Shown: piece by piece, positions 134 through 37,184 of the stretch | Numbering within the stretch: position 1 is the stretch's first letter | Layout: every line of letters begins with the position of its first letter | From: Marinifilaceae bacterium | GTDB taxonomy: Bacteria > Bacteroidota > Bacteroidia > Bacteroidales > Marinifilaceae | Assembly (NCBI GenBank): GCA_016936255.1 | Contig: JAFGYE010000094.1 | Span: 1 to 48,752, forward strand | Reading direction: 5' to 3' | Length of the DNA: 48,752 nucleotides | Translations under genes and position numbers: made by a program | Notes under the pieces: model-generated | Databases searched by the model: none | Told to the model about the DNA's origin: nothing | What the model saw: only the letters and a program-made list of their open reading frames with translations

Positions 134-2377
134 CTATTTCACTGCAAACTCAGCACCCAAATCGGCATTGGAATTTCCTCCAATCCAAAGCATAAATTTT
201 CCAGGCTCAACAACATTCATCATTTGCTGATTATGAAATGACAATTCGCTTGCCGGAATTGTGAAACTCACCCTTTTGGCTTCTCCTGCCTTCAGTTTCA
301 CCCGATCGAAAGCTTTTAGTTCTCTTACCGGTCTGGTAACATCTCCAACCAGATCACGAATGTAAACCTGCACAACTTCTTCGGCAGTACATTCGCCTTT
401 GTTGCTTAATAAAACGGATACTTTCAACTCTGCTGTACCTGCAATTACCGGTGTTTCAATCCGTAAGTCTGAATATTCAAAATCAGTATATGATAATCCA
501 AAACCAAAGGGATATAAGGGTTCAAAACCTTCATCCATGTAATGAGAAGTATTTCCCAATGATGTTTGATAGGCCTTTACGGGAATTTTATCAATTGAAG
601 GCCAGTTATTGGGATCAACAGGTCGTCCGCTGTTTTTATGATTGTAGTACATGGGAATCTGTCCAACCGATTTTGGCATTGTTACCGGCAATTTACCTGA
701 AGGTGATACTTTTCCAAACAAAATATTTGCCAATGCTGTTCCTCCCATAGTTCCCGGATGCCATGCATACAGTACTGCATCTGCATTTTCGTATACATCT
801 CCTATACTCAATGCTCTTCCTGCCATTACAATCAGAACGACTGGCTTGCCTGTTTCCGATATTTCCTGTATCAGTTCTTTTTGAATTCCAGGAAGATCAA
901 GTCTGGCCCGGCAATGAGCCTCTCCTGATAATATCGCTTCCTCGCCCACACATACAACAACAACATCAGAGGATTTTGCAGCCTTTATTGCTTGTTTGAA
1001 ACCATCTGAATTTTTGTCTCTTGTGTATTTTAATCCTTTTGCAAAATTCACCTTCGCATTTCCCAGTAAATTTCTAATTCCTTCGAGCGGCGTAATTGAT
1101 AATAAACTGTCGGCATCGAAGCTCCATGTTCCCAATTGCTCGTATTTTTCATGAGCCATCGGGCCAATAACTGCAACTGAATTTATTTTTGTGGAAAGAG
1201 GCAACAGCTTATTTTTATTCTTCAAAAGAACGATGCTCTGTTCGGCCGCTTCCAGAGCTGCTTTTTCTATGTCTTTTTCTCCAATTTCGCCCTGTCCGTT
1301 TTCATCTACATATGGGTGCTCAAATAAGCCCAGTTCAATTTTGATTCGCAGTATATTTCTTACTGCATCATCAACTAAATCTATATTTATAAGACCCTCA
1401 TCCAAAAGTTCCTTAATATGATTTTTGTAACAGGTGGAAGCCATTTCCATATCAACGCCTGCTATCAAAGCTTTTTTTGCTGCATCTTTTTCATCAGAAG
1501 AAAAACCATGACTGATCAATTCATGAATGGATGCCCAGTCGCTGACCACCATTCCATCAAATTGCCACTCCTCTCTTAAAACCTTACGAAACAAGAATTG
1601 ATTTCCCGAAGCCGGAACGCCATTCAAATCATTGAATCCTGTCATAAAAGTTCTGATACCGGCATCCTTGGCTGCTTTGAATGATTTAAAATAAACATCC
1701 CGCAATTCTCCTTCAGGAATAAGTGTTGTATTATAATCCCGGCCTCCTTCTGCGGCACCATAGCCGGCAAAGTGTTTTGCGCAAGCGGCTATTTTACCAT
1801 TTGAAAAAAGAGAACCATTGGTGCCCTGAAAACCTTCGGTAGAAGCAACAGCCATTTTTGAAACCAAGTATGGATCTTCTCCAAAACTTTCTGCAATTCT
1901 CCCCCATCGGGAGTCTCTGGCAATATCAATCATGGGTGCAAATGTCCAGTTAACACCAGCTAAAGAAGCCTCTTGTGCTGCAATACCTGCCCCTTTTTTT
2001 ACTATTTCAGGATTCCAGGCAGCTGCTTGCCCCAAAGGAATTGGGAATATGGTTTTAAAACCATGTACAACATCTCTGCCTATTAACAAAGGAATACCCA
2101 ACCGACTTTCTTCAATTGCTGTTTTTTGAATTTCATTTACTGTTTTTACGTCAACTTCGTTCAAAATAGAGCCAACATTTCCAGCCTTTATTTCTTCTTT
2201 TATCTTATCCGGAATTTGTCCGGAAAAGCCATTGATCTGACACATTTGTCCTATTTTTTCATCAATTGTCATTTGCGACAAAAGTTTCTCAATCTTCTGA
2301 TCATTCGTAGATAAAGAAGATACACAAGACTGTAAAAGGCAAAGACATATCCCTAATACGTAAAATCTATTTACCAT
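134..2377 (-). CDS. GH3 beta-glucosidase, BglX-like lipoprotein
   Basis: Exo-acting beta-glucosidase that should release glucose from beta-linked gluco-oligosaccharides in the periplasm. I chose the ATG at 2377 (747 aa) because it opens a lipoprotein signal ending LLQSC with the lipidated Cys at 18; a longer reading from a TTG at 2419 only adds 14 residues before it. Residues after the Cys are not acidic, which favours the periplasm over surface export. The order is GH3 N-terminal TIM-barrel (nucleophile Asp280 in VVSDW; KHFAGYG and GRDYN loops), GH3 C-terminal alpha/beta domain (ILSGEAHCRA with a candidate acid/base Glu) and a fibronectin-III-like end (FGFGLSYT onward). Length is normal for BglX-type enzymes. 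It lies last in locus 1, behind a terminator, so it may have its own expression control. Family assignment is secure; the exact linkage is inferred from neighbours. Confidence 0.95.
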   Translation of the reverse strand: MVNRFYVLGICLCLLQSCVSSLSTNDQKIEKLLSQMTIDEKIGQMCQINGFSGQIPDKIKEEIKAGNVGSILNEVDVKTVNEIQKTAIEESRLGIPLLIGRDVVHGFKTIFPIPLGQAAAWNPEIVKKGAGIAAQEASLAGVNWTFAPMIDIARDSRWGRIAESFGEDPYLVSKMAVASTEGFQGTNGSLFSNGKIAACAKHFAGYGAAEGGRDYNTTLIPEGELRDVYFKSFKAAKDAGIRTFMTGFNDLNGVPASGNQFLFRKVLREEWQFDGMVVSDWASIHELISHGFSSDEKDAAKKALIAGVDMEMASTCYKNHIKELLDEGLINIDLVDDAVRNILRIKIELGLFEHPYVDENGQGEIGEKDIEKAALEAAEQSIVLLKNKNKLLPLSTKINSVAVIGPMAHEKYEQLGTWSFDADSLLSITPLEGIRNLLGNAKVNFAKGLKYTRDKNSDGFKQAIKAAKSSDVVVVCVGEEAILSGEAHCRARLDLPGIQKELIQEISETGKPVVLIVMAGRALSIGDVYENADAVLYAWHPGTMGGTALANILFGKVSPSGKLPVTMPKSVGQIPMYYNHKNSGRPVDPNNWPSIDKIPVKAYQTSLGNTSHYMDEGFEPLYPFGFGLSYTDFEYSDLRIETPVIAGTAELKVSVLLSNKGECTAEEVVQVYIRDLVGDVTRPVRELKAFDRVKLKAGEAKRVSFTIPASELSFHNQQMMNVVEPGKFMLWIGGNSNADLGAEFAVK

Positions 2378-2420
2378 TTTTTCATTTTTAATCGTTCTTG
2401 AAAACCCAAACGGAATCAAC

Positions 2421-5124: not shown

Positions 5125-8100
5125 TTAAAAAGACAGGTTTAAACCAACTGTATATGTTCTTGCCTGAGGATATATTCCGCGATCAATACCAAGAGAAGTA
5201 CCTCCTGAAGAAATTTCAGGATCAAAACCGTCGTATTTTGTGAAAGTGAAAAGATTCTCTGCTGCAACATAAAAGCGCAAACTATTTACAAATGCCTTAT
5301 TGACAATATTTTTGGGTAGAGTGTAACCTAATGTTACATTTTTTATGCGCATATAATCGCCATCTTTAACATAGAGGTCAGATGATAACCAGTTGCCGTT
5401 ATTATCTGAAAATGAAAACCGCGGAATTGTATTGGAAGTTCCTTCTCCTATCCAACGATCTAACATATAGGCAGGCAAATTAATATAACGCAAGTCTGTA
5501 CGTCGGGTAGCATCATAAATATCGTTACCAACAGTTCCCTGCAGCATCATGCTAAAATCAAAGCCTTTAAAATCAATTCCAAAGTTTATACCGTATGTCC
5601 AGTCAGGCATACCCTTTCCAATCATTGTACGGTCATCATCTCCAATAGAGCCATCTCCATTCAAATCCACAAACCTTACATCTCCAGGAACTGCATTCGC
5701 CTGGATTAAGCCACCTTCATTATTCACATGTGAATTAATTTCTGCATAATTTTGGAAAATACCATCTGTTTTATATCCATAAAAATAGGGGAATGGCAAC
5801 CCATTTTGGGCTCTCGAAATAGTTCCTACATTAGCATAGCTATCGTAATTAGCAAAACCATCTGCATTTCCCAGATTAACCAATTCGTTTTCAAGATAAG
5901 AAGCGTTTCCTCTAATGCTAAAGTTGAAATCGCCAAGCTTGAATCTATAGCCTAAATCAAATTCAATACCCCAGTTTTTCATATCTCCAACATTACCAGT
6001 TGGTTTTGATTCTCCCACATAAGAAGGAATCGACATCGTCATCAACATTCCATTGGTTTTCTTCTCATAGTAATCAACTGTAAATGTCAATGCACTATTT
6101 AAGAATCCGAAATCAAGTCCTATGTCGGTTTGCTCCGATTCTTCCCATGCTAATGAAGTATTAGCCAGCCCAGATGCTTTTGTTCCATTTACTAATGTTC
6201 CATTCCCTGGTCCAAAAGCATAATTATTACCTGTTGAAGTAAGGGCGGTATAACCAAAAGCCCCGATATTTTCATTCCCGTTTTTACCCCATGAAGCTCT
6301 CAGTTTAGAAGAAGTTAACCACTCTGGACGCGATTCCATGAATGCCTCATTTGTAATATTCCATCCCAGTGAAATTGAGGAGAACACACCATATTTTTTC
6401 CCCGGACCAAAATTAGAAGAACCATCTCTACGAATAGTGGCCTGAAACATGTATCTCTCTGAAAAATTATAGCTTAACCGGGCAAACATTGACGCTAAAG
6501 TATGTGGGCTCCAAGCTCCTCCTCCAACTGTCTGGTCTCCATTTGCAGCTGTTCCGGTAGTAAAATCAATATTGGCTTTGTCTCCATTTTCTTCAACCAT
6601 AAATTTATTACTTCCGCCTAAACCACGACCTGTTACTTTTTTAGCTGATTGCCCTAACATTACGTTAAAATTATGCTTGTCGGCAATACTCTTTTCGTAT
6701 GATAAGATATTTTCCACCTGCCAGGTAAATCCACGATTCATACTCGACCAAACTTTTGAGTAATCAGAATAAGCAGATTTACCTAAATAATATTCAGGTG
6801 TCCAACCATCATTACCCCAAAATGCCAGATCAGTTCCAAATGAAGATCTAATCTTTAAATTGTCCCAGATCGTTAATTCGCCCCAAAATGACGACACTAA
6901 CTTGTCCGAGTTATTCTCTTCTCCCGGTAAAGCCAGCTGAGCGACCGGATTAGTGATTTCGTTATATTCATCACCAGCGATTGTATAAATTAACCCATTC
7001 TTTGGGTCACGAACCGCCGTTGGGTGAAGGGCTGCAGCCACTGCCTGATCCTCTTCATACAAACCTAACAATGGTGAGAATGAAATTGCACCTCCAAGTG
7101 CTGAACCATACTCCGAGTTTGTTCCAATACCTTTAGAGTTTATTCTTGAATAGGCAACATTAATTCCTACTGTTAATTTATTTAAAAAATTACGGTTCAT
7201 ATTATCCAAAAGATGGTATGTTGTATTTGACCTTAATGAGATCCTCTCATAATTAGAACGGTCAAAATTTCCACCAACGATTCCATCCTGCTTATAATAA
7301 CCTGCAGAGAAATAATATATAACTTTATCGGATCCGCCGCTAACACTCAATTGATGGTTTTCAACAGGGGCATTGTCATAAAAAACCATATCCTGCCAAT
7401 CTGTACCCTTACCCAATGCATAAGGATTATCATATCTTGCAGTTTCCCCTGAATTAACTAGACCTTCATTTATCAGTAAAGCATATTGTTGGGCATTTAA
7501 CACATCCCTTTTATTCCATTTGCTTTGCCAACCTCGCGAGAAATCATATTTTACAGATAATTTGCCTTTATCTCCACTTTTTGTAGTTATCAGAATAACT
7601 CCATTAGCAGCACGGGCACCATATACTGCTCCTGATGCAGCATCCTTTAGAACTTCAATAGACTGAATGTCACTTGGATTTAAATAATCTATTCCTCCAT
7701 CAATTGGCATACCATCAACAATATATAATGGATCACTATTATTAATTGTACCAATACCACGAATTCGTACTTGCGAAGAAGCTCCCGGCTGTCCGGAAGA
7801 TGATGTAACGGTTACTCCTGAGGCCAATCCTTTCAGAGCATTATCGATGCGAACAGGTGCAATATTTTCTAAATCATCTGCTGAAACTTTCGCAATTGAA
7901 GCAGTTAAAACACTCTTTTTCTGCACTCCGTAACCAACAACAATAACTTCGTCAAGTCCTGTTGTTTCCACATTTAAAACCACATTCATTTCTGAATTGT
8001 TCCCCACCACAATTTCCTGTGAGCTAAAACCAATCAGCGAAAATACCAGTATCCCATCATTTGAGATCTCAATCTGATATTTTCCATCCATATCGGTAGT

Positions 8101-8253
8101 AGTACCGATTGTAGTACCTTTAATCACTACCGAGGCAAACGGCAATGGTATACCATCCTCTGCTGAGGCCACTATACCTGTTACGGCATGCTTTTGTGCA
8201 AAGGATTGCAAGCAAAATAATGCCAAAACTAAAAACAAGACTGTTTTTTTCAT
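5125..8253 (-). CDS. SusC/RagA-family TonB-linked outer-membrane transporter (locus 1)
   Basis: TonB-dependent beta-barrel that imports oligosaccharides across the outer membrane with its SusD partner. The 1042-aa protein has a signal peptide (to about residue 19, SFAQ), a carboxypeptidase-regulatory-like domain (about 22-105, DGIPLPFASVVIKGT), the SusC-type LDEVIVVGYG segment, a plug domain (about 115-225, PLYIVDGMPI and GAVYGARAANGVILITTK) and a C-terminal barrel ending in LNLSF. Its first 90 residues closely resemble those of the second SusC at 33896-36937, and both genes share the leader string CTTAACTAA just before the start. Good evidence for family; transported glycan inferred. Confidence 0.96.
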   Translation of the reverse strand: MKKTVLFLVLALFCLQSFAQKHAVTGIVASAEDGIPLPFASVVIKGTTIGTTTDMDGKYQIEISNDGILVFSLIGFSSQEIVVGNNSEMNVVLNVETTGLDEVIVVGYGVQKKSVLTASIAKVSADDLENIAPVRIDNALKGLASGVTVTSSSGQPGASSQVRIRGIGTINNSDPLYIVDGMPIDGGIDYLNPSDIQSIEVLKDAASGAVYGARAANGVILITTKSGDKGKLSVKYDFSRGWQSKWNKRDVLNAQQYALLINEGLVNSGETARYDNPYALGKGTDWQDMVFYDNAPVENHQLSVSGGSDKVIYYFSAGYYKQDGIVGGNFDRSNYERISLRSNTTYHLLDNMNRNFLNKLTVGINVAYSRINSKGIGTNSEYGSALGGAISFSPLLGLYEEDQAVAAALHPTAVRDPKNGLIYTIAGDEYNEITNPVAQLALPGEENNSDKLVSSFWGELTIWDNLKIRSSFGTDLAFWGNDGWTPEYYLGKSAYSDYSKVWSSMNRGFTWQVENILSYEKSIADKHNFNVMLGQSAKKVTGRGLGGSNKFMVEENGDKANIDFTTGTAANGDQTVGGGAWSPHTLASMFARLSYNFSERYMFQATIRRDGSSNFGPGKKYGVFSSISLGWNITNEAFMESRPEWLTSSKLRASWGKNGNENIGAFGYTALTSTGNNYAFGPGNGTLVNGTKASGLANTSLAWEESEQTDIGLDFGFLNSALTFTVDYYEKKTNGMLMTMSIPSYVGESKPTGNVGDMKNWGIEFDLGYRFKLGDFNFSIRGNASYLENELVNLGNADGFANYDSYANVGTISRAQNGLPFPYFYGYKTDGIFQNYAEINSHVNNEGGLIQANAVPGDVRFVDLNGDGSIGDDDRTMIGKGMPDWTYGINFGIDFKGFDFSMMLQGTVGNDIYDATRRTDLRYINLPAYMLDRWIGEGTSNTIPRFSFSDNNGNWLSSDLYVKDGDYMRIKNVTLGYTLPKNIVNKAFVNSLRFYVAAENLFTFTKYDGFDPEISSGGTSLGIDRGIYPQARTYTVGLNLSF

Positions 8254-8526: not shown

Positions 8527-11232
8527 TTATTTAACAACCAGAACCTTCACGGTTTTGTTCATGTCTTTACCTGAAACTGTAAGCAGGTATGTACCTGTTG
8601 CATATCCATTTACATTAATGGAATGACTTTTTTCGGAACTCAACTGAGAAAACAACTGCGTTCCGCCCATCGTAAAAAGACTAATTTGTCTGCTGGAAGA
8701 AGATTCAAAATTGAGGTTTAAAATGTCGGACGTCGGATTGGGAAATACTTCAAATTTCGACTCATGAATTGGATTCTCAATTCCTGTAACAGTGCCGTCA
8801 TCAAAAGAAATCCAATTCAGATTGTGTTCTCCTGATTCAGACAATAAGCGTAAAATTGTTTTGCCTTTCGGGAGATCTATTGTTATGGATTTTGTTTGCC
8901 AGGATTGCCATCCATTGGTACTTCCAAAAGAAACAGATTCATTGGAAACCATTTCTCCGTTCACTGAGTTCAAAACAAGAATTTTTGCATTTTTTGCTGT
9001 AGCAAACCTGAAATTCATAGTGAAAGTTCCCGCTGCCGGCACATACAGCAGATATTCCAAATAATCACCGTCCGAAGCATAGGAAGTGTTTTTCCCTTTT
9101 CCTGTGTCGGTACAATCTTCCAACTCTAAGCCACTATTGATCATGAAATTTTCCGCTTCAATTTTTCCAGGAATTTCAAAATGCCTGTTGAAATTATTTT
9201 CGACAATTACATTTGCAAAAGACTCCAGTTCTTTAGAACCTGATTTTACACTATTTCCTGTATAGGAAAGTTTGATTTCATGATTATAAAACAAATCCTT
9301 CTCAGTCATTAGAATGATCTTCCGGCTGTTATTCGGATCCAAAATAAAATCTGAAATGGGAACTGATTCTCCATCAACCGTTAATTCAAATTCATTGATA
9401 TTAATATCGTTTTCAACCGATGTAATTGGCCGATTTACATCAAGAAATATTTCATTATCAATTTTTGCTGAACCGGCTTTTAACAGCTTAAAAGGAACAG
9501 CGCTTATTTCGACTGGTTCAATCAATGAAAAGTGGTTTACATTCAGCTCACCGCCATCAAACACAAGTTTAATTTTAACCATGCCTTTTGGCAGAATAAT
9601 GTTATTTATTGTGCTGGTTATATAGCTGGTCCAACTGCCTGTAGAAGGAAGTTCAAACGTTTCGGAAACTATCTGACCGTTTGCCTCAATATGCATAGAG
9701 GCTTTCCCGGTACCAGCTGTTCTGATTTCTAATTTATAGGCCGCATTAGCTTCCGAATTAACGGTATACTGTAACCACTCACCGCTTTTCACAAAACCAA
9801 CATTGTAACCATTGGTTTCCGTATCGTTACACTTCTCAATATCCACACCGTCATTACGGTATTCCCAACCCTGATTCCATGCCTTATATTCACCGGTATT
9901 TAGATGATAATTTGCAGTGTCTGTATCGAAGTAAGCACAGTTGTTTCTGCCCAGGTCATAATCGACGGCAAATATTTTCTGACTTGTTTTATGCGTTTTA
10001 AATGGTTTTGTTTCTGTTGTGTGAGGCTGACGAATAAGGGCATCAATTACATCGTACTGAATCGTACAATTTTCAAATTTGTGATTGTTGGCAAAGGTCA
10101 TAACCGCACTAAATGCTTCATCCGAAGTCATTGTACCATTGCCTTTCCACATCTCAATCATTTGTAAATAATCAGCATTCGTTTTAACCTTTAGTATGTT
10201 ATTAATGCCTGATTTTTTTACCGGCCACCAAGACCATCCCACATTGTTGCTTTCTGCTAATGCCGCCAAGTTTGTGAACCATGTATTGGAATTCTCACCT
10301 GTTTCACCCAACCAAACCGGACGATTTTGCTCATCTCTAAAATCTGTTATCCATTTTAATGCATTTGCATCATTGTATGTCCAATATTTATGAAAACTGT
10401 AAACCATGTTATCATCCCAGGCAGGAGTCAAACCAGAATAATCATTGGCAAACGAATTCCCCTCAATAAATAGGATGTGATTTTTATCAACTTCGCGAAT
10501 GGCATCAGTAATTTTGCCGTACAAATCACGAATTTGTGAATTGTTGCCTTCGGGAAACGTCCAATTGATTTCATTAATTAAATCATACCCGCCGATCCAT
10601 GGCTCGTTGCTGTATCTTTCAGCAATTTTTTTCCAGAGTGCAACTGTTTTGTCTTTGTTCAATTCACTTTCCCATAAGGATGGCTTCGAAGAATCGTAGT
10701 CAGAAATTGGAGCATCTTTCCCTTGTCCTCCTGGTGCTCCATGCAAATCAAGAATCAAATACATCTGATTATCGGCACACCACGAAAGCAAATCATCTAT
10801 CATGTCGAAGCCTTTGTTTGTCCATGTTATTTCGCCTTGTACAGGTTCATTTTCGATGGCAGGAGTAAACCATTTGTAATGCATTGCAACTCGTATACAA
10901 TTAAATCCCCATGCAGACATCGAGTCAACATCAATTTTTCTAAAATGATTTGAAAGCCAAACATCATAAAATTCGTTGGTGCGGGTCTCTCCTACTGTTT
11001 CAATTAATTTATTTCTGAACTCATGCTGAGTGTTAGCTACATCTGAAGACTGCATCATGTAACCTTCCTGAATCATCCAATTCCCGGTTCCGATACTTCT
11101 GATTATTAAATTGTTTCCATTTCCATCAACAATACTTGTTCCATTAACATGTGCAAATCCCTGCGAAAAAGCAGGAGCGGAAAAACTAAGGAACAAGAAT
11201 ATAAAAAAGGAGAGATTGAGAAAAATCTTCAT
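8527..11232 (-). CDS. multidomain GH5 glucanase with CBM6 modules and T9SS sorting domain
   Basis: Secreted endo- or exo-glucanase, 901 aa from the ATG at 11232, chosen because it opens a clean Sec signal (MKIFLNLSFF to AFSQ); longer readings run into the end of GH30. The GH5 barrel covers about 27-365: acid/base Glu221 in LINEINW, nucleophile Glu310 in WLGETGE, plus LDLHGAPGG and SFHKYW. A CBM6-like module follows (about 420-572, GEWLQYTV), then an Ig-like linker (about 575-665) and a second CBM6-like module (about 690-815, IPGKIEAENF, DYLEYLLYVP). The end (about 830-901) is a type A T9SS sorting domain with FPNPTSD and GTYLLTV, so the enzyme is exported through the outer membrane and anchored or released. 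Subfamily and linkage cannot be set by eye. It is the only T9SS cargo in the window. Confidence 0.92.
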   Translation of the reverse strand: MKIFLNLSFFIFLFLSFSAPAFSQGFAHVNGTSIVDGNGNNLIIRSIGTGNWMIQEGYMMQSSDVANTQHEFRNKLIETVGETRTNEFYDVWLSNHFRKIDVDSMSAWGFNCIRVAMHYKWFTPAIENEPVQGEITWTNKGFDMIDDLLSWCADNQMYLILDLHGAPGGQGKDAPISDYDSSKPSLWESELNKDKTVALWKKIAERYSNEPWIGGYDLINEINWTFPEGNNSQIRDLYGKITDAIREVDKNHILFIEGNSFANDYSGLTPAWDDNMVYSFHKYWTYNDANALKWITDFRDEQNRPVWLGETGENSNTWFTNLAALAESNNVGWSWWPVKKSGINNILKVKTNADYLQMIEMWKGNGTMTSDEAFSAVMTFANNHKFENCTIQYDVIDALIRQPHTTETKPFKTHKTSQKIFAVDYDLGRNNCAYFDTDTANYHLNTGEYKAWNQGWEYRNDGVDIEKCNDTETNGYNVGFVKSGEWLQYTVNSEANAAYKLEIRTAGTGKASMHIEANGQIVSETFELPSTGSWTSYITSTINNIILPKGMVKIKLVFDGGELNVNHFSLIEPVEISAVPFKLLKAGSAKIDNEIFLDVNRPITSVENDININEFELTVDGESVPISDFILDPNNSRKIILMTEKDLFYNHEIKLSYTGNSVKSGSKELESFANVIVENNFNRHFEIPGKIEAENFMINSGLELEDCTDTGKGKNTSYASDGDYLEYLLYVPAAGTFTMNFRFATAKNAKILVLNSVNGEMVSNESVSFGSTNGWQSWQTKSITIDLPKGKTILRLLSESGEHNLNWISFDDGTVTGIENPIHESKFEVFPNPTSDILNLNFESSSSRQISLFTMGGTQLFSQLSSEKSHSINVNGYATGTYLLTVSGKDMNKTVKVLVVK

Positions 11233-11341
11233 TTTACAATTCCCGTATTTTCCTTCTGATTGATATTCAAGTCGTCGTAACATATTTTTACTATTTAGCA
11301 GCAGTTTCATTGGTATAGATTTATTCCTGTTGGATTTGTGG

Positions 11342-12844
11342 TTATTCGTTAATAACAATTGTTGCAATTGAATGAGCAGGAAGAAGAGACAGTGCACCTC
11401 TTCCTTCTAACCATATTTTAAATTCAAGTTGCTGATCAGTTTGATTCATGGCTACAACAGCAATGCTATTGTCTTTATTTACAAAAGCTGTTGCCAGAAT
11501 ATTGTCATCATTCGAAGAACAAATGATACGTTGTGCACCCGGACGGATGTATTTTGAGAAATGCCCCAGGTAGTAATAGGAATTCATGTAAACAATTTCA
11601 CCCGTTTTTGTATTTCCGATTATTGGCGCGTAACAATAATTGGCAACATGATTTGGACCTCCATTTTCATCGAGTAAAACATTCCAATCCACCCAACCCG
11701 AAGCCGAATTATTTAGGTCATGAATAAGAGACTCTCCATATCTTTCTCCCCAACACCATTCACGAACCTTGCTGTAATCAAATGGAAATACACATCCTTC
11801 AGTGAAAATGGTTTTCTTGTCAGGGAATGCCTCAGACACAAGTTTCACGTTCTCAAAATGATCTCCGGTATACCAATGAAAACCAGTGCCCCAAATGTAT
11901 TTCGATGCTTCAATGTCATCAAAGACCACTTGAGCACGCTGGTACATTAATCCTCGGTTGTGATCCCAGATAATAATTTTCTTGTCCCCCATTAAACTAT
12001 TTTCAAGAGTTGGCCCCAGATAGTTTTTTACAAAATCTCTCTCTTCCTCTGCAGAAAAAATACAGGATTCCCAGCGTTGAACTGCCAATGGCTCATTTTG
12101 AACGGTAAGCCCCCAGAAATCAATCCCCTGCTTTTTATAAGCATCAAAGAATTTAACGAAATAATCAGCCCAAGTCTGAAAATATTCCGGTTTCAAACTT
12201 CCTCCTTCCAACATGTTGTTGTTGGTTTTCATCCACGCAGGAGGACTCCAGGGAGAAGCGAAAAGTTTCATTTCATTCCCTGATTTGGCTAAGGCTTCTT
12301 TGATAAAAGGAATTTTATACTTTTTATCGTGATTAATCGAAAAATTCTCTAAACTTGTGTCGCCGCTTACTTCTGCATAGGAATAGCTTTCACTTGAAAA
12401 ATCACAACTATGAATATGAGTGCGGCACAAACTATAGCCAATCCCTTTCTCCCGATCGAAATAAGCCTCTAAAATTTCGCTTTGTTTGTTTTTGGGAAGC
12501 TTATAAAAAGTTTCTGCTGCGGCATCAGTAAGCGCACCACCAAAACCTTCAATAATTTGAAAACGCTTTTTTGCATCTAATATAAGAGTGGAAAAATGTT
12601 CTTCCGGCTGATTAAAATCCCCAACCAACAGGTCATCAGATTTTGAGAATCTTAAATCCCCTTCTTTTGCGGTAGTATATTGAATTGCTTTTTCAAGAGT
12701 AATCTTATTACTGCTTCGACTATTCGTCTGCAAATTTTCATTTCTATTCTGTTGATTGCTTTGTCCGGCAATTAGATTGCATGCATTAAGAATGCCTGTG
12801 CTAATAACTGCAAATAAAAAATATTTCAATATTGTGCTTGTCAT
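11342..12844 (-). CDS. GH30 glucosylceramidase-like glucosidase/glucanase lipoprotein
   Basis: Retaining glycosidase of family GH30. Within a beta-1,3-glucan locus the best-supported role is removal of beta-1,6-linked glucose branches or cleavage of beta-1,6-glucan, as known for GH30 members of laminarin loci. The 500-aa product has a lipoprotein signal ending ILNAC (Cys22) with a non-acidic tail, favouring the periplasm. Motifs: IEGFGGALTDAAA (about 98-110), ASPWSPPAWMKTN (about 196-208), acid/base Glu251 in TVQNEPLAVQ, nucleophile Glu349 in IFTEGC, and a C-terminal beta-sandwich (GHFSKYIRPGAQRI). It is the first gene after the phased CTCAAA array, with the GH5 gene 109 bp downstream. Subfamily (GH30_1 versus GH30_3) not resolved. 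Confidence 0.93.
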   Translation of the reverse strand: MTSTILKYFLFAVISTGILNACNLIAGQSNQQNRNENLQTNSRSSNKITLEKAIQYTTAKEGDLRFSKSDDLLVGDFNQPEEHFSTLILDAKKRFQIIEGFGGALTDAAAETFYKLPKNKQSEILEAYFDREKGIGYSLCRTHIHSCDFSSESYSYAEVSGDTSLENFSINHDKKYKIPFIKEALAKSGNEMKLFASPWSPPAWMKTNNNMLEGGSLKPEYFQTWADYFVKFFDAYKKQGIDFWGLTVQNEPLAVQRWESCIFSAEEERDFVKNYLGPTLENSLMGDKKIIIWDHNRGLMYQRAQVVFDDIEASKYIWGTGFHWYTGDHFENVKLVSEAFPDKKTIFTEGCVFPFDYSKVREWCWGERYGESLIHDLNNSASGWVDWNVLLDENGGPNHVANYCYAPIIGNTKTGEIVYMNSYYYLGHFSKYIRPGAQRIICSSNDDNILATAFVNKDNSIAVVAMNQTDQQLEFKIWLEGRGALSLLPAHSIATIVINE

Positions 12845-12869: not shown

Positions 12870-12877
12870 CAAATATA
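12870..12877 (-). promoter_or_regulatory. candidate -7 promoter box for GH30
   Basis: The minus strand reads TATATTTG, a full match to the Bacteroidota TAnnTTTG -7 consensus, 25 bp before the GH30 ATG. No TTG was found at the -33 spacing, as expected if an activator is needed. The phased array begins 31 bp upstream of it. Confidence 0.5.
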
Positions 12878-12907: not shown

Positions 12908-12960
12908 TACCTCTCAAATACTCCTCAAACGTTTACAGATACTACTCAAAACCTCTCAAA
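12908..12960. promoter_or_regulatory. phased 11-bp direct-repeat array, likely regulator operator
   Basis: Four copies of an 11-bp unit: TACCTCTCAAA (12908), TACTCCTCAAA (12919), TACTACTCAAA (12940) and AACCTCTCAAA (12950). The CTCAAA cores start at 12913, 12924, 12945 and 12955, i.e. spaced 11, 21 and 10 bp, placing every core on the same DNA face. It lies between the regulator gene and its first downstream enzyme gene, at about -45 to -97 relative to the predicted GH30 start point. This suggests cooperative binding by the adjacent LuxR-type regulator; the binding itself is inference. Confidence 0.65.
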
Positions 12961-13048: not shown

Positions 13049-16009
13049 TTACAAATCCATAAGGTATTTCTGCAAAGATTTATTAGAATCAAGTTCTAAT
13101 TTTTTTCGAAGGCGATAGCGGTCGTTTTCAATAGCACGTGTGGTTTTGTGCATAAATTCCGCAATCTCTTTTGAAGAAAGATTCATTCTAACGTACGAAG
13201 CAACCTTTACCTCAGACAAAGTTAAAGTCGGATGTTCGTTACGTAACTTACTTATAAATTCATTATACATTTTGTCCAATCGAGGCTCGAGGTATTTCCA
13301 TTCCTTATCATCGTTGATTTCGTTATCGATCTCATCAATTACAATTTGCAAACCATTTTTTACTGCTGGCAGTGCTTTAGAAGCGAGTCCCAGCATACGA
13401 TTTTTATAATTGATTAAAACCCGATTTCGATTTACGGTGTAAAAAGTTAGTTTTTCCAGTTCCGATTCAATATTTTCCTTTTCAAGTTCGGCAATTCTTT
13501 TTTCCTTAAAAGCCTGTTCCTGCAGGAATTTAATTTTTAAAAGTCGCAATCGATAATTGTAAACACCCAGTATAACACCTGCAATAAGGCTAACAACCAG
13601 CAAAATAAACCACTCCGTTTTCCAGAATGGAGGAAGAATATTAATACTCAATTCAGCAATATTATCCCCCCATTTGTCATCATTATTTGAGGCCTGAACT
13701 TTAAATGTATAACTTCCATTCTTTAAATTTGAATAAGATGCAAAGCGATGTTCTGAATTGGAATCGTACCAATTTTCATCGAATCCTTCCAATTTATATT
13801 TGTACTGACACTTTTTAGGATGAGTATAATTTAAGGCGGCAAATTCAATTGAAAAAACCTTATCGGAATAAGTTAACTCAATCTCCTGAGTGTAGGTGAT
13901 ATCATTTTTCAATTTAATGTTCTGATTGATTGAATCGCCTGGTAATACTTCCTGATTTAAAATTTTTAGTTTCGTAAAATAAATTTTGGGAATACTAAGA
14001 TTTAAAGACAATTCAGAAGGATTGAAGATGTCCAGACCATTTTTAGAACCGGCAATAAAAGTACCATCTTGTAATTTAATAAAAACCTGAGAATTAAACT
14101 CATTCGACGATAATCCATCTGATTTGTCAAAAGACATAAATTTGCTTGAATCTTTTTTTAACCAGGCAATTCCATCATAAGTAGTTACCCAAATTCCCCC
14201 TGCTGCATCTTCTTCTATTCCAAGGATAATCATTCCTGGCAAACCATTTTTTATTGTATACTGAATGGCTTCTTTTTCTTTTTTATTGTATTTAAACAAA
14301 CCGTAGCCTTCGGTACCTATCCATACGTTTCCCCAACTATCCTGAAACAAATCCTTAATTACTCCCTCTGTAGTAATATTTGAATTTGTGTTTATTCTCA
14401 ATACATTATTCACTTGCTTATCATATACATATATGCCATTTCCTTCGGTACCAAACCATATGTCACCATCGGAATCCTCCATAACAGACATTACATTAGA
14501 ATGATTAATTTTGATCAATTCATTAGAGGATGGTCCAATATTTTTAAATATCTCTGTATCTGAATTAAAAATATCAACACCATTGCCCAAAAGTCCCAGC
14601 CAATTTTTTCCCTGACTATCCACCAAAATGGTCCAAACATTTTCGGAATGTAAACTTGAATTATTTTGAGAATTCTGATGAAAACGCTTAAAAGAATTCG
14701 TATTGTAATTATATATATTTAAACCAGCATTGTAAGTACCTACCAAAATATTGCCATTTACATCCTCTGCCAAACTAGTAATAACATTGCCTGATATACT
14801 TGATTCATCTATAATCTCAGAATAAAAATGAGTCAATTTATATTCTTTGTCAATTACGTGTAAACCCGATCCATCAGTTCCTATCCAAACATTTCCTTTG
14901 CTGTCCTGTAAAATACTAAGAACCGATTTACCTTTAAAAAAGGAACGAATATTATCAGGCAATCGTTTGTTTGCAAATTTCCTCGCAAGAGGATCATAAT
15001 AGGCTACGCCTTTATCATATGTTCCTACCCAAACTCTGTTGGCATGGTCTTTATATAAGGTATAAACCTGATTGCTTGGCAAGCAATTAAAATCAGCATC
15101 ATTAAAATTCACATAATCAAATGTTTCTTTTCGGGTATCCAATATGTTAATTCCTCCCCCATCTGAAGCAATCCAAATTTTACCATCCGAATTTACAATC
15201 ATATCTCCAGTCAGAACTTCAGAACTCAACCCATTTTCTTTAAAATAGAATTTTGATTTTTCCGATTCAAGATTGTATTTGCATAAGCCATGCTTGTCAG
15301 CAGATATCCATAAATTCCCCTCTCCGTCATCGAGAAGCCGCTTTCGGTAATTCCCTGAATTTAATTTTAAATTGTTGCAGGATATCGTAAAAAACTTACC
15401 AGTCATTCTATCCAAACGCTGTATATCTTTTTCAAAAGTTGCAATAAATAATTGTCCATCGTTGGTTTCCACAATATCACTTACCACATAAGAATTTATG
15501 CTTTGAGGCTCTTTATTAGGACGATAAACCTTAAAAGAATCAGTGCTTTTATTAAAAAAAGCAAGACCATTGTTACTACCTATGCATACTGTTCCATCTT
15601 TCAGAACTTTTATCCGATTAACCTGATTTCCTATGCCATAACCGGAACCGTATTTTTTAAATTGATTTGTTTTTGGATTGAATCTATTCATTCCATTTTG
15701 ATAGGTTCCCACCCAAATATATCCATCTTTATCTTCAGCCATTGATAATATTCTATTGCCCGAAATAGAATTGGTATCTTGAGTATTTCGATAAACTTTT
15801 ACCTCATAACCGTCAAAACGGCAAAAACCATCCCGGGTACCAAACCACATAAATCCTGTACTGCTCTGTAAAATGCATTCTACATTATTATGTGGCAGTC
15901 CTTGTTCTTTTGTGATTTTATTAAAACAGTATTGTCCAAACGAAAAATTAAGACAAAAAATTAACAGAATGCTTGAAAAAAGCTTTTTATTTTTTATAAT
16001 TTTTATCAT
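13049..16009 (-). CDS. membrane propeller / Y_Y_Y / LuxR-HTH regulator without kinase (locus 1)
   Basis: Likely one-component transmembrane activator of locus 1. The 986-aa protein has a signal peptide (to FGQ, about 26), two seven-bladed-type sensor propellers built from repeats such as GYIWVGTYQNGMNRF and GNVWIGTDGSGLHVI (about 30-700), a Y_Y_Y domain (about 720-795, CQYKYKLEGFDENW), one TM helix (about 798-820), a coiled coil (about 825-860) and a C-terminal LuxR-like helix-turn-helix (about 926-986, LTLSEVKVASYVRMNLSSKEIAEFM). Unlike hybrid two-component systems it shows no HisKA, HATPase or receiver domain. A periplasmic glycan ligand is expected from the architecture. It lies just upstream of the phased array and GH30. 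Confidence 0.9.
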   Translation of the reverse strand: MIKIIKNKKLFSSILLIFCLNFSFGQYCFNKITKEQGLPHNNVECILQSSTGFMWFGTRDGFCRFDGYEVKVYRNTQDTNSISGNRILSMAEDKDGYIWVGTYQNGMNRFNPKTNQFKKYGSGYGIGNQVNRIKVLKDGTVCIGSNNGLAFFNKSTDSFKVYRPNKEPQSINSYVVSDIVETNDGQLFIATFEKDIQRLDRMTGKFFTISCNNLKLNSGNYRKRLLDDGEGNLWISADKHGLCKYNLESEKSKFYFKENGLSSEVLTGDMIVNSDGKIWIASDGGGINILDTRKETFDYVNFNDADFNCLPSNQVYTLYKDHANRVWVGTYDKGVAYYDPLARKFANKRLPDNIRSFFKGKSVLSILQDSKGNVWIGTDGSGLHVIDKEYKLTHFYSEIIDESSISGNVITSLAEDVNGNILVGTYNAGLNIYNYNTNSFKRFHQNSQNNSSLHSENVWTILVDSQGKNWLGLLGNGVDIFNSDTEIFKNIGPSSNELIKINHSNVMSVMEDSDGDIWFGTEGNGIYVYDKQVNNVLRINTNSNITTEGVIKDLFQDSWGNVWIGTEGYGLFKYNKKEKEAIQYTIKNGLPGMIILGIEEDAAGGIWVTTYDGIAWLKKDSSKFMSFDKSDGLSSNEFNSQVFIKLQDGTFIAGSKNGLDIFNPSELSLNLSIPKIYFTKLKILNQEVLPGDSINQNIKLKNDITYTQEIELTYSDKVFSIEFAALNYTHPKKCQYKYKLEGFDENWYDSNSEHRFASYSNLKNGSYTFKVQASNNDDKWGDNIAELSINILPPFWKTEWFILLVVSLIAGVILGVYNYRLRLLKIKFLQEQAFKEKRIAELEKENIESELEKLTFYTVNRNRVLINYKNRMLGLASKALPAVKNGLQIVIDEIDNEINDDKEWKYLEPRLDKMYNEFISKLRNEHPTLTLSEVKVASYVRMNLSSKEIAEFMHKTTRAIENDRYRLRKKLELDSNKSLQKYLMDL

Positions 16010-23397: not shown

Positions 23398-26300
23398 TTA
23401 TTTTCTCCCGATTGAAAAATCGATTCTCTCCACTTCTCCACTTCGGTTAAATATCAAAGAACTTGTCTCCCCATCTATTGTATTGTTTGGAATCACTTTC
23501 GTTTCTCCGGTATTAAATACAATTGTAATTTGATTTTTTTCTGCGGAAGTATAGATCACAGGAACCTTGCAGTAAGTAAAGGCTATTTGACCGCTATGAA
23601 CAGCAATTTGTTTCTCCTGTCCATTAACGTCATAGTAAACAAATAGCTCATCATGATTCAATATCTCCTGATCGTTAAACAAAGAGGTACCAAAAACGAT
23701 CTCACCCTTTCGAACCTGGATTCCCAGCTCCGCCATTCTTGAAATAAAATCTTCTTTTACCTGACCGGTCATACCTGGTTGTTGAGCACCAGCATGAGAA
23801 GGTGTGTGAGAATAAGCATCTGTTGGGAAGGCTCCGTATAATTTCGGTGATTTATACAATCCAATGCCTGCTTTAATTTCGTAGTAATGATCCTTTATTT
23901 TACCAATCACTGCTGGATCAGCTTTCTGTTCTATAGAATTAAAATAGCTTTCCTGTGTGGCAAGCAAAAGCTTCGAAACCATGTGCCAATAGATACTACC
24001 CAAACCTTCAAATCCATAAAAAGTACCCGACCGGCCTGTAAATGACTGATGATCAAACATCTTTTCGAAAATATCAAGCACCTTCTTTTTTTCCTCTTTA
24101 ACAAGCTGTCCGTACTTATTTGTGTTCAGATTGTTGATGGCAGTTTCCAAAACCTGAGCATTCCTAAATGTGCCATTAAAATGATAGCCACCTAAATCAT
24201 CTACGTTTAGAATTGAAGAATCCTGATCAGCAATTAACTGAGATAATAATTTGGATTCTTTCACTTCTTCGGCAGGGATGTTGTTCTTTTCTGCAAACAG
24301 AGGTAATTGTCTGTTTGGATAAAGAAAGTAACTGTACTGATCTTCGCGGAACAATGCACTTGCTTTTAAAGCATCCAGAATATCCAGACTTTCCTCCGCA
24401 TTTAAATAACCAGAGCTTAAAACAGCAACCTGTCCTTCCAGCATTTGGTATAAATAACGAACCGAAACACTTTCCTCTGTAAACGAAATCAGATTATAAG
24501 CATGATAGAGTCCATCTTCACGTTTATTTACTTCAATGGATTGATCCATATAAACCAATGCTAAATTGGTGAATTCGAGCAATTGGCTTACCGTCACTGT
24601 TTTTTTCAATCCTGAAAAAGAATTGGCATAAATTCCATTTCGGTAAGTAGTTCCAGCTTCTCCAAGAACATCGGCGAAACGTCGTCTGTCTTCATCCGAA
24701 AATCCATTTTCCAATAGAGATGCATTTTCAGTAAACAAATTAAAAATGCTATCCAGTAAAGTTTTCACCTCTTCAGAAATGCGGATCTCTTCTACAGAAA
24801 CAGCAGCAAATTTTTCAGACCAAAACTTCAGGAATCTTCTTAGGTAACACAAAGTAACCATCGAAACGCCATTCCCCACCAAGGCATTGTTCGCGTCGTT
24901 CCACTCCGGACGTTGAGTATTTAACCAGATACCCGCTTCAGGAATAAAATTGCTCAATTTAGCCAGTAGTGTTACCAAAATTTTTTCGGTAAGATTCACC
25001 TGATACAACTGATCGCCTCCATTTGTCAGCATTCGCGCATCAGCTCCTATCAGTGCTACCCTGCTTCTAATCTGATCATTTAAAGCGTAATCAAACTCAA
25101 TTGTGTCTTGTGGATTTTTTACTATATCCTGATAAGATTTAATTCGATACGGAACATTTGCGTAAACAAAATTCTCTTGCGAAAGCATCTCATCTAACTT
25201 TTGCGGATGATATTCATTGGATAACTCCAGAAATTTTTGAAGATAGATAATCTGATGATCTCCCCAGTACCCAATATAAGCCCATGGATCATGCGGATCC
25301 GGACATTCCCAATCAATTCCTTCACGCGTTATTCGGTATGGATTGTAACCATCAGGAGTAGATGCATTTACAAATTTGCCAATCATTCCCTCGATAAATT
25401 CAGGATACGACAAACCCAGAGCTTCCCAGTTTTGAAAGATATCACGCCAGTTTCCCTGATAATTCAATTTTGGTGAGCCATCGTCATTTTTTGTTTCGAT
25501 AGAAAACTGATTCCAAGGACGACTTGGATCTCCATGTCTTCTGCTAAATGTTAGCGGAAGATATTCATAACAGATTCTAATCAAATCAGAATTTCCCGTC
25601 TTTTCAGCCAGTTGATTTAATTCGGTATAAGTAATTTTCGCTGGCAATTGATCAATCCACAATTCAAATTCTTTAGCGATCAATTTATTTGTTTGCTGAA
25701 CGAACAATTTAAAATCATCTGATCCCACAAAGTAATTATCAATAAAAACACCTCCCCGCATCACATTAAAAAGTGTATTTGAAAAATGACGGGCGCAAGC
25801 CAAATCATCATTTCCTATTTGCAAACCATCGGCGTCTGCAACAATTTGAATCAAATTTTTTGTGCCTAAAGCGATATCATTGGATACTAATTCTGATATG
25901 TTCTTTTCAGTATTGATAAAGTTATTTAGATTGGCAACAGCTGCACTGTTCTGATTTACTTCTGCAACAATTATCCATTCTCGCGAAGCTTTTGCTCCCA
26001 ATTCCAATTCTGCATTTAAAATATAAGCTCCTTTTGTTGCTCTAACATCAAATTCAGCCTCTACGGGAAAACCTTCCTTAAATCGATCGCATTGTTTGCT
26101 TGACAAAAGAATTTTCCTTTTGTCATTTAATCCATGCGACCATACAGTAGTTGCATTTAACGATTCACTTGGTTCAGCTCTGTCAACAGGTATTGAACTC
26201 AACATATACAATCCCAGTCCACTTTCTGCAAGCAATTCACTTTTCTTGTATGCGTCTAACAGATTACTGTATTCATTCTGAAAATTGTAATCTATACCGC

Positions 26301-26859
26301 AAGGAAGAATATTTTCAATCCCGTCAAGAATCTCAAATTTTACGGATTCATCGCTTAAATTACTAACGATCGATTTTTTTACCCAACCAAATTTTTCACT
26401 GTTGCTCCAGCCGTATTGGAAACTCATTCCCAAATCGAAATTCACCTCTTCAAAAATGACTTTGTTGCCATAAATACTCTTATACAAATTCCGTTCAATC
26501 TTGTATATTTTTCTCAGACCATCAGAGAAAGGTTTCCATAGAAAGGTTTTTTCATTCTTTTCAACCAGCACAATTGTCTTACTGCCTGTTTTATCTCTGT
26601 AATCGTGAATCTTATCAACGGTATAATAAGGGAACAATGCATTGTTCCTGTCTTTTCTTCCTGCCGACAAAGAACCATTGCTCGATATGAACATCCAGTG
26701 ATCGGAATCACTGACTATACTCATAAAGAAGTCTGACATTTGATCAGAATTGCTGATCTTGTAAAACTTTTCATTATGTAGTTCTACGAATTCCCCCTCA
26801 ACGTCAGCCTTACTGCAATTCAAACTCGTGTCTCCCAAATAAATGCTATTCTTCTTCAT
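23398..26859 (-). CDS. putative beta-1,3-glucan phosphorylase (GH94/GH149/GH161-type)
   Basis: Large cytosolic protein of 1153 aa with no signal peptide. Its build is that of inverting GH94-superfamily phosphorylases: an N-terminal beta-sandwich (about 1-320, with SNGSLSAGR near 60-68), a helical (alpha/alpha)6 catalytic barrel (about 360-1010) and a C-terminal beta domain. Motifs supporting this are RRHGDPSRPWNQF (440-452), YQGNWRDIFQNWEAL (467-481) and RPEWNDANNALVG (650-662); the EWND Asp655 aligns by eye with the DWND general-acid region of GH94. Length well above GH94 enzymes matches the beta-1,3-glucan phosphorylase families GH149 and GH161. The reaction would be oligosaccharide plus phosphate to glucose-1-phosphate and a shortened chain. 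Context (GH16, GH17, sugar porters) fits. Which family, or whether a new one, cannot be decided without a search. Confidence 0.68.
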   Translation of the reverse strand: MKKNSIYLGDTSLNCSKADVEGEFVELHNEKFYKISNSDQMSDFFMSIVSDSDHWMFISSNGSLSAGRKDRNNALFPYYTVDKIHDYRDKTGSKTIVLVEKNEKTFLWKPFSDGLRKIYKIERNLYKSIYGNKVIFEEVNFDLGMSFQYGWSNSEKFGWVKKSIVSNLSDESVKFEILDGIENILPCGIDYNFQNEYSNLLDAYKKSELLAESGLGLYMLSSIPVDRAEPSESLNATTVWSHGLNDKRKILLSSKQCDRFKEGFPVEAEFDVRATKGAYILNAELELGAKASREWIIVAEVNQNSAAVANLNNFINTEKNISELVSNDIALGTKNLIQIVADADGLQIGNDDLACARHFSNTLFNVMRGGVFIDNYFVGSDDFKLFVQQTNKLIAKEFELWIDQLPAKITYTELNQLAEKTGNSDLIRICYEYLPLTFSRRHGDPSRPWNQFSIETKNDDGSPKLNYQGNWRDIFQNWEALGLSYPEFIEGMIGKFVNASTPDGYNPYRITREGIDWECPDPHDPWAYIGYWGDHQIIYLQKFLELSNEYHPQKLDEMLSQENFVYANVPYRIKSYQDIVKNPQDTIEFDYALNDQIRSRVALIGADARMLTNGGDQLYQVNLTEKILVTLLAKLSNFIPEAGIWLNTQRPEWNDANNALVGNGVSMVTLCYLRRFLKFWSEKFAAVSVEEIRISEEVKTLLDSIFNLFTENASLLENGFSDEDRRRFADVLGEAGTTYRNGIYANSFSGLKKTVTVSQLLEFTNLALVYMDQSIEVNKREDGLYHAYNLISFTEESVSVRYLYQMLEGQVAVLSSGYLNAEESLDILDALKASALFREDQYSYFLYPNRQLPLFAEKNNIPAEEVKESKLLSQLIADQDSSILNVDDLGGYHFNGTFRNAQVLETAINNLNTNKYGQLVKEEKKKVLDIFEKMFDHQSFTGRSGTFYGFEGLGSIYWHMVSKLLLATQESYFNSIEQKADPAVIGKIKDHYYEIKAGIGLYKSPKLYGAFPTDAYSHTPSHAGAQQPGMTGQVKEDFISRMAELGIQVRKGEIVFGTSLFNDQEILNHDELFVYYDVNGQEKQIAVHSGQIAFTYCKVPVIYTSAEKNQITIVFNTGETKVIPNNTIDGETSSLIFNRSGEVERIDFSIGRK

Positions 26860-36937: not shown

Positions 36938-37045
36938 AAATTAGTTAGTTAAGATTAGAAATTAGTTGGATGCTCTATTTGCACAGTCTGCACCTACAAC
37001 GATTGCAATGTAAGGCCAACAATCCTACTTAATCAAAAAAATGGA

Positions 37046-37184
37046 TACATCACAAACTCAACAGCTCTAAAACACCAATACATCATTACTACATCACAGC
37101 ACAATTACATCCTTATAAAATATTGATTTTTAAATATTTAACTTTTATTAACAATTTAATATTTTTTAAATACACCATACATCA
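37046..37184. promoter_or_regulatory. TACATCA repeat array upstream of susC (locus 2)
   Basis: TACATCA or TACATCC occurs at 37046, 37079, 37090, 37106 and 37178, with TACACCA directly before the last copy (37171). Start spacings among the first four are 33, 11 and 16 bp, i.e. about 3, 1 and 1.5 helical turns; TACATCACA is exact at 37046 and 37090. The minus strand just downstream reads TTACATTG (37006-37013), a poor -7-like match, at a distance similar to that between array and box at GH30. Likely operator for the adjacent regulator; no binding evidence exists here. Confidence 0.55.

Follow-up and report, generated by a model that had tools for sequence, protein, structure and literature searches.

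Phased direct repeats beside a kinase-less propeller regulator: a predicted activator operator in Bacteroidota

The locus and its repeat array

The window, by which we mean the whole stretch of 48,752 nucleotides analysed (Marinifilaceae bacterium, assembly GCA_016936255.1, contig JAFGYE010000094.1), holds a locus in which a regulator gene, reg1, is followed by genes for glycoside hydrolases and a SusC-like receptor. The array under study lies between reg1 and the first enzyme gene. In the direction of transcription the features are:

13049–16009, minus strand: reg1, with Reg_prop propellers and Y_Y_Y, a long helix and a LuxR/NarL-type HTH; the presumed reader of the array
12951–12960, minus strand: unit 1, TTTGAGAGGT; -83 from the -7 box; within the genus the least conserved unit
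12940–12950, minus strand: unit 2, TTTGAGTAGTA; -73 from the -7 box
12930–12939, minus strand: spacer between the tandem pairs, TCTGTAAACG; well conserved within the genus
12919–12929, minus strand: unit 3, TTTGAGGAGTA; -52 from the -7 box; degenerate in two of the nine loci compared below (G476 and G569)
12908–12918, minus strand: unit 4, promoter-proximal, TTTGAGAGGTA; at exactly -41 from the -7 box in all nine loci
12870–12877, minus strand: putative Bacteroidota -7 promoter box, TATATTTG; invariant in a six-genome alignment
11342–12844, minus strand: GH30 glycoside hydrolase, first gene after the array
8527–11397, minus strand: GH5 with CBM6/CBM35 and a secretion tail, second gene
5125–8253, minus strand: SusC-like TonB-dependent receptor, preceded by a 273-bp gap
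134–2419, minus strand: GH3, end of the locus

The GH30, GH5, SusC-like and GH3 genes probably form one operon, and the substrate of the locus is likely to be a beta-1,3/1,6-glucan. CTCAAA, the hexamer of the array, is absent from both strands of the 273-bp gap before the SusC-like gene.

The 986-residue reg1 protein gave no Pfam match to histidine kinase, receiver or AraC domains at an E-value of 0.001. The best PDB sequence matches of its sensor part are HTCS-type sensor structures (4a2l and 3v9f). AlphaFold modelled the last 195 residues with a mean pLDDT of 92.3 and a pTM of 0.68, as a long helix (likely a membrane span and a coiled coil) followed by a small helical domain. Foldseek aligned this small domain with DosR, LiaR, VraR, DNA-bound NarL and ComA, at target TM-scores of 0.72–0.81 and probabilities of 0.99–1.00, none of them with an E-value below 0.001. 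The GerE Pfam match of the C-terminus is weak, at 18.3 bits against a curated cut-off of 23.5; judged by its predicted fold, the C-terminus is a LuxR/NarL-type HTH.

The array occupies part of the 204-bp gap between reg1 and GH30. CTCAAA starts on the plus strand of the window at 12913, 12924, 12945 and 12955; read on the minus strand, the TTTGAG units start at 12960, 12950, 12929 and 12918, with spacings of 10, 21 and 11 bp and a total span of 53 bp (12908–12960). Along the direction of transcription the order is TTTGAGAGGT TTTGAGTAGTA TCTGTAAACG TTTGAGGAGTA TTTGAGAGGTA, then 30 bp, TATATTTG, a short leader and the GH30 start. We take TATATTTG to be the Bacteroidota -7 box by its fit to the consensus TAnnTTTG. 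The four units start at -83, -73, -52 and -41 from this box; the start of the box is 31 bp from the end of the array (30 bp between) and 41 bp from the start of the proximal unit. An earlier note on this DNA had described CTCAAA units 11, 21 and 10 bp apart on one face of the helix, an array start 31 bp from a box in front of GH30, and a kinase-less propeller regulator as the neighbour. All three descriptions were borne out, the regulator by its Reg_prop and Y_Y_Y domains, the lack of a kinase match and the fold of its HTH.

The hexamer as such is not enriched in the window, where 38 copies were found and 47.7 expected. In none of 5000 shuffles of the 204-bp gap did any one hexamer occur in at least four non-overlapping copies within 53 bp, and the score for the phased four-unit layout was likewise reached in none of 1000 gap shuffles (z 6.1). 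When the whole window was shuffled, however, 4 of 40 shuffles contained some four-fold hexamer cluster within 53 bp, so that the cluster by itself is modest evidence; the array is secure because it is conserved in related loci. Across the window's own genome, CTCAAA-N3-6-CTCAAA has 11 matches, as against 4 in a reversed control. Three of the 11 have a spacing of 10 or 11 bp, namely the window's two pairs and a match at C58:47121; the latter was rejected as a further copy of the array as it lies inside a coding ORF.

By eye, a second motif, GTTTAC, occurs four times in the same gap (12931, 12987, 13009 and 13021). Its last two copies lie within a 12-bp direct repeat, and the copy at 12931, which falls in the array spacer, is retained by five of the six aligned genomes.

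Conservation of the array with its regulator

Orthologues of reg1 are present in four genomes of the same genus (85–89% identity), in another genus of the family (66%) and in one genome labelled as the same species, giving a total of 7 of 56 family genomes; an order-wide search found them in 2 of 392 further genomes, both belonging to other families. The earlier note had proposed a search of homologous loci for the same array. Run on the nine loci in which reg1 or an orthologue precedes GH30 or GH5 (G000, G366, G007, G002, G005, G004, G027, G476 and G569, from three families), this search found the array in every one, with the proximal unit always at -41; the lack of conservation that the note had named as refuting did not occur. 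Two of the loci, G476 and G569, were retrieved with the pattern already defined and serve as an out-of-sample test. The first enzymes of these two loci and of G027 were named by eye from sequence.

Within the six-genome alignment, 81% of positions are invariant across units 2–4 and the spacer, 50% in unit 1 and 100% in the box. The corresponding figures for the flanks are 18% from the regulator stop codon to the array, 37% from the array to the box and 36% from the box to the ATG. The units of G569 stand at -83, -73 and -41, the same positions as in the window, and those of G476 at -82 (with one mismatch), -72 and -41; both loci have a degenerate unit 3. Unit 1 is degenerate, reading TTAGAG or TCAGAG, in G007, G002, G005, G004 and G366. 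The G027 locus has five TTTGAG units, and its first gene after the array is GH5-like rather than GH30; the array therefore goes with the regulator and the promoter. Two more distant regulators with a near-identical recognition helix, L048 and L049 (51% and 48% identity to reg1), showed no tandem TTGAG array in their downstream DNA, which comprised only ∼60 bp 3′ of the L049 regulator and, for L048, lay before a different next gene; the neighbours of both differ from those of reg1, and the result counts neither for nor against the reading.

The proximal pair, TTTGAGGAGTATTTGAGAGG, was used to scan 14 genomes. At up to two mismatches it was found at the reg1 locus only, in all six genomes with reg1 and in none of the eight without (one of the eight, G006, being 63% complete). 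The window's own genome has no second match at this threshold; at three mismatches, matches outside the reg1 locus appear in six of the 14 genomes. Judged by its proximal pair, reg1 looks like a single-site regulator.

A paralogous regulator with an array of other letters

A second regulator of the same architecture lies elsewhere in the window, with an array of its own:

37248–40178, minus strand: reg2, a paralogous kinase-less Reg_prop/Y_Y_Y/GerE regulator, which precedes the SusC-like gene of the second locus
37042–37096, minus strand: reg2 array of TGATGTA units; unit starts 37096, 37085, 37063 (degenerate) and 37052, at spacings of 11, 22 and 11 bp

The GerE match of reg2, at 24.6 bits, is above the curated cut-off of 23.5. 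Taken by itself, the reg2 gap of the window scores z 3.7 (1 of 1000 shuffles), and some relatives score lower. Among the 13 aligned genomes, the window included, exact copies at 11 and 33 bp are present in 11, and one genome, G003, has one mismatch in the first TGATGTA copy. The third unit is degenerate in all the aligned genomes except G023, where all four TGATGTA units are intact at 11, 22 and 11 bp. At up to two mismatches the reg2 pair was found at the reg2 locus in 14 of 14 genomes, with one extra match elsewhere, in G015. The promoter also differs in its letters from TAnnTTTG, a conserved TACATTG or ATATTGC standing at 39–40 bp. The reg1 and reg2 arrays therefore represent two regulators of one family, with a common two-pair layout and different letters.

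An extra TGATGTA copy lies at 37178–37184 (minus strand), after a hairpin-like stretch behind reg2 and 88 bp upstream of the first array unit; most of the 13 aligned genomes have a copy at 87–88 bp. The second locus, also a glucan locus, encodes in addition a 1153-residue protein (23398–26859, minus strand) for which there was no Pfam match at an E-value of 0.001, with a GH17 gene two genes on. This protein may belong to a recent family of beta-1,3-glucan phosphorylases.

Direct repeats downstream of kinase-less regulators across the phylum

Kinase-less regulators were collected from 32 of 89 listed relatives and 78 of 123 listed phylum entries, together with those of G366 and G027; in the phylum list six entries above the cut were passed over, substitutes were taken for two planned entries, and lower entries were left out. 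Of the 80 phylum-set loci, 52 have a co-directed next gene at a distance of at least 120 bp. These were joined by 24 of the 32 relatives' loci (eight being left out as convergent, short or about 620 residues long) and the two gaps of the window, to give 78 regions, of which 57 are non-redundant.

Direct repeats at a lag of 11 bp were found in 35 of the 57 non-redundant gaps between regulator and target, against 10.4 expected (z 8.7). When the repeated unit was required to contain at least two G or C, the count was 27 of 57 against 3.3 expected (z 12.2). The reg1 gap of the window has no qualifying lag-11 pair and is outside these 27, and for this reason the phylum count is independent of the reg1 array. 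Weaker excesses over shuffles appear at lags of 33 and 44 bp, and also at 8, 16, 18, 19 and 32 bp.

Two controls show how much of this signal is general. Regions upstream of the regulators (64 of 77, in part fixed 250-bp stretches that may include coding DNA) have lag-11 repeats in 11 of 64 cases (z 4.7), and the target gaps are higher (Fisher p 0.0004). In gaps beside HTCS-length ORFs (40 of 43 gaps next to ORFs of at least 1200 residues, chosen by length and not by kinase or AraC domains or kinship) the lag-11 count is 10 of 40 (z 4.7), and the target gaps are again higher (Fisher p 0.034). The HTCS-adjacent gaps peak instead at lag 21, with 12 of 40 (z 6.3); the target gaps have 11 of 57 at this lag (z 4.7), with no separation between the two sets (p 0.24), nor were they separated at lags of 22, 33 and 44 bp (p 0.56, 0.14 and 0.55). 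Ten gaps with a convergent next gene gave one lag-11 repeat where 0.5 was expected. Lag 11 is the distinguishing signal of the target gaps, but part of it is general. The excess upstream of the regulators could be a sign of autoregulation or of helical phasing in general. Across the phylum set no common distance to TAnnTTTG was found; most gaps lack the box.

In five gaps downstream of regulators (L262, L266, L268, L325 and L331) two 11-bp tandem pairs face each other, 95–102 bp apart, with the TACATCA-type pair 185–211 bp and the TGATGTA-type pair 89–109 bp before the next gene. The second pair of L262 is weaker and fails the repeat filter. Such facing pairs form a second layout, possibly one for looping.

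Unit spelling and the recognition helix

The recognition helix of these regulators can be aligned with that of EsrB, and alignment A3 covers 63 of the 99 sequences prepared. We grouped the regulators by the two residues that precede RYR in this helix, the first of which we take, by the NarL–DNA complex, to be a base-contacting position; the groups were drawn after the motifs had been seen. Five regulators with TH or TI at these residues (L271, L273, L321, L328 and L301) carry TGACGTA or TACGTCA in their gaps instead of TGATGTA, in most cases as 11-bp tandem repeats. Four genera of one family supplied the TH regulators, and the window's own order the TI regulator. In the non-redundant set, TGACGTA was found with all five TH/TI regulators and with none of the 52 others (p 2e-7), and TGATGTA with 14 of 16 regulators having I or L followed by S, H, Q or R and with 3 of 41 others (p 9e-9); these p values, like those for the repeats, are inflated because the genomes are related and the grouping was post hoc. 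In the full set of 78, TGACGTA accompanies 5 of 5 TH/TI regulators and 1 of the other 73, the exception being an IS regulator. The corresponding residues of reg1 are ND, and its unit is TTTGAG. No clear 11-bp unit was seen for the classes VK, IK, VS (the 952-residue regulators L181 and L183–L185), NK and ER. That unit spelling follows the recognition-helix residues is supported by these sequence comparisons, for groups drawn post hoc.

Interpretation of the array

Position and covariation together point to the array as the operator of reg1, and we consider it highly probable that it is an activator site for this adjacent, membrane-anchored one-component regulator. Sites of this kind, spelled differently, seem to serve related regulators of the Bacteroidota as well. 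On balance we also favour, with much less assurance, a wider proposal, namely that the kinase-less propeller/Y_Y_Y/LuxR regulators of Bacteroidota would share a common grammar. Their sites would be tandem 10–11-bp direct repeats on a single face, one HTH per turn, arranged pairwise: in this bacterial family as two pairs with three turns between them, in some relatives as two facing pairs at a distance of ∼100 bp. The residues just before RYR would determine the letters, such that target sites could be read from protein sequence.

The following mechanism would fit. A periplasmic beta-glucan oligosaccharide would be sensed by the propeller and Y_Y_Y domains of reg1, bringing its cytoplasmic LuxR/NarL-type HTH domains together; ligand-driven pairing of the coiled coils is a natural guess for how a signal might pass without a kinase. 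The HTH domains would then bind head-to-tail in successive major grooves on one face of the DNA, one per 10–11-bp unit; the occupied units would make up two tandem pairs (-83/-73 and -52/-41), separated by roughly three turns of the helix. With the proximal unit 41 bp from the -7 box, the complex would sit just upstream of the -33 region, within reach of RNA polymerase, and would activate GH30, GH5 and probably the SusC-to-GH3 genes behind them. Binding, the ligand, the sign of regulation, the stoichiometry, the cooperativity and the extent of the operon are the conjectural parts of this scheme; cooperative loading of several membrane-held reg1 molecules is a hypothesis that fits the two-pair geometry.

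The operator reading of the earlier note gains from the conservation of the array, its absence from eight of eight relatives without reg1, the geometry beside reg2 and the link to the recognition helix, but four equal units was too strong a description: five loci have a degenerate unit 1, and two a degenerate unit 3. It is possible, if doubtful, that one tandem pair or three units are functional and that a single reg1 dimer binds them, the remaining unit having decayed, with no cooperative array. The degenerate third unit beside reg2 would suit such a variant, as would the family-wide signal, which is strongest for simple 11-bp pairs. Against this, the degenerate copies remain in phase and retain some of the unit's letters; in G023 the reg2 array is complete with four units, in G027 the reg1 array numbers five, and lags 33 and 44 are also above shuffles.

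Sequence alone does not fix the direction of control. Placed between the stop codon of reg1 and the GH30 gene, the array might be read by reg1 as a repressor site, or might serve the 3′ end of reg1 itself. We regard this as improbable: in nine loci the array lies upstream of the promoter box without overlapping it, at a constant 41 bp, a placement to be expected for an activator site, and SusR and HTCS regulators are activators according to the available text of PMC3878776 and PMC6874557.

Slightly more improbable still is an operator for another transcription factor that lies near reg1 by chance. The array was assigned to reg1 by position and covariation, which leaves some room for this. However, the proximal pair is absent from the eight relatives without reg1 and has no other match with up to two mismatches in its own genome, and its confinement to the reg1 locus makes a global regulator unlikely; the same geometry recurs beside reg2, and the spelling in the family tracks the recognition helix. 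A chance cluster, or AT-rich curvature of no regulatory meaning, carries negligible weight despite the four-fold clusters in shuffled windows, with the array conserved in three families at an invariant distance from the promoter.

If the array is the operator of reg1, as we favour, the conserved operator, the fixed promoter distance and the link from helix to letters together would make transcription by a transmembrane protein without a phosphorelay directly testable. Operators of the reg1 type could also serve for regulon prediction and as parts for glycan-inducible expression.

Comparison with known systems

Several known regulators share parts of this arrangement. The MalT boxes of enterobacteria are asymmetric tandem boxes bound by a sugar-sensing activator with a LuxR-type HTH, and the HTH type and the tandem boxes are points in common with reg1; MalT is cytosolic and ATP-dependent, whereas reg1 is membrane-anchored. 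The SARPs of Streptomyces use a type of DNA-binding domain different from the NarL-type HTH and are unrelated to reg1, which has one. In operator layout they are nevertheless similar: as described in the accessible part of PMC5930380, SARP operators consist of heptamers repeated directly every 11 bp on one face, with cooperative binding by monomers presumed, and mediate activation; the reg1 array consists of 10–11-bp direct repeats within its pairs, on one face and near a promoter. NarL-type HTH proteins are themselves able to bind direct repeats, DegU, a member of the NarL family, being an example in the text available from PMC2245950; unlike reg1, DegU and NarL are response regulators that also bind inverted repeats and have no membrane anchor, on the same partial source.

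Among regulators of Bacteroidota, the HTCS proteins are, like reg1, membrane sugar sensors with a related propeller sensor, and their operators are direct repeats before PUL genes; in Bacteroides these have a period of 20–21 bp, made up of sites of 12–16 bp and a spacer, as far as the available text of Ravcheev et al. 2013 (PMC3878776) describes them. The lag-21 peak of our HTCS-adjacent gaps agrees with that period as given there. By comparison with the same account, reg1 lacks the kinase, receiver and AraC domains, and its array, at 10/21/11, has one unit per turn in two pairs in place of a period of ∼21 bp. SusR-like regulators resemble reg1 as membrane-anchored PUL regulators without a phosphorelay that use direct repeats on one DNA face. 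The published spacing sets them apart: the centres of SusR sites are separated by 67 or 77 bp in the sections of PMC3878776 at hand, and the reg1 array has four boxes within 53 bp.

In the open-licence literature searched, as far as its available text extends, no operator was found for kinase-less propeller/Y_Y_Y/LuxR regulators, and the accessible parts of PMC12125979 and PMC5698469 contain nothing on the operators of this family. 11-bp tandem direct-repeat operators are already known from the Streptomyces SARPs; by this comparison, what appears to be new is their probable use by a kinase-less propeller regulator.
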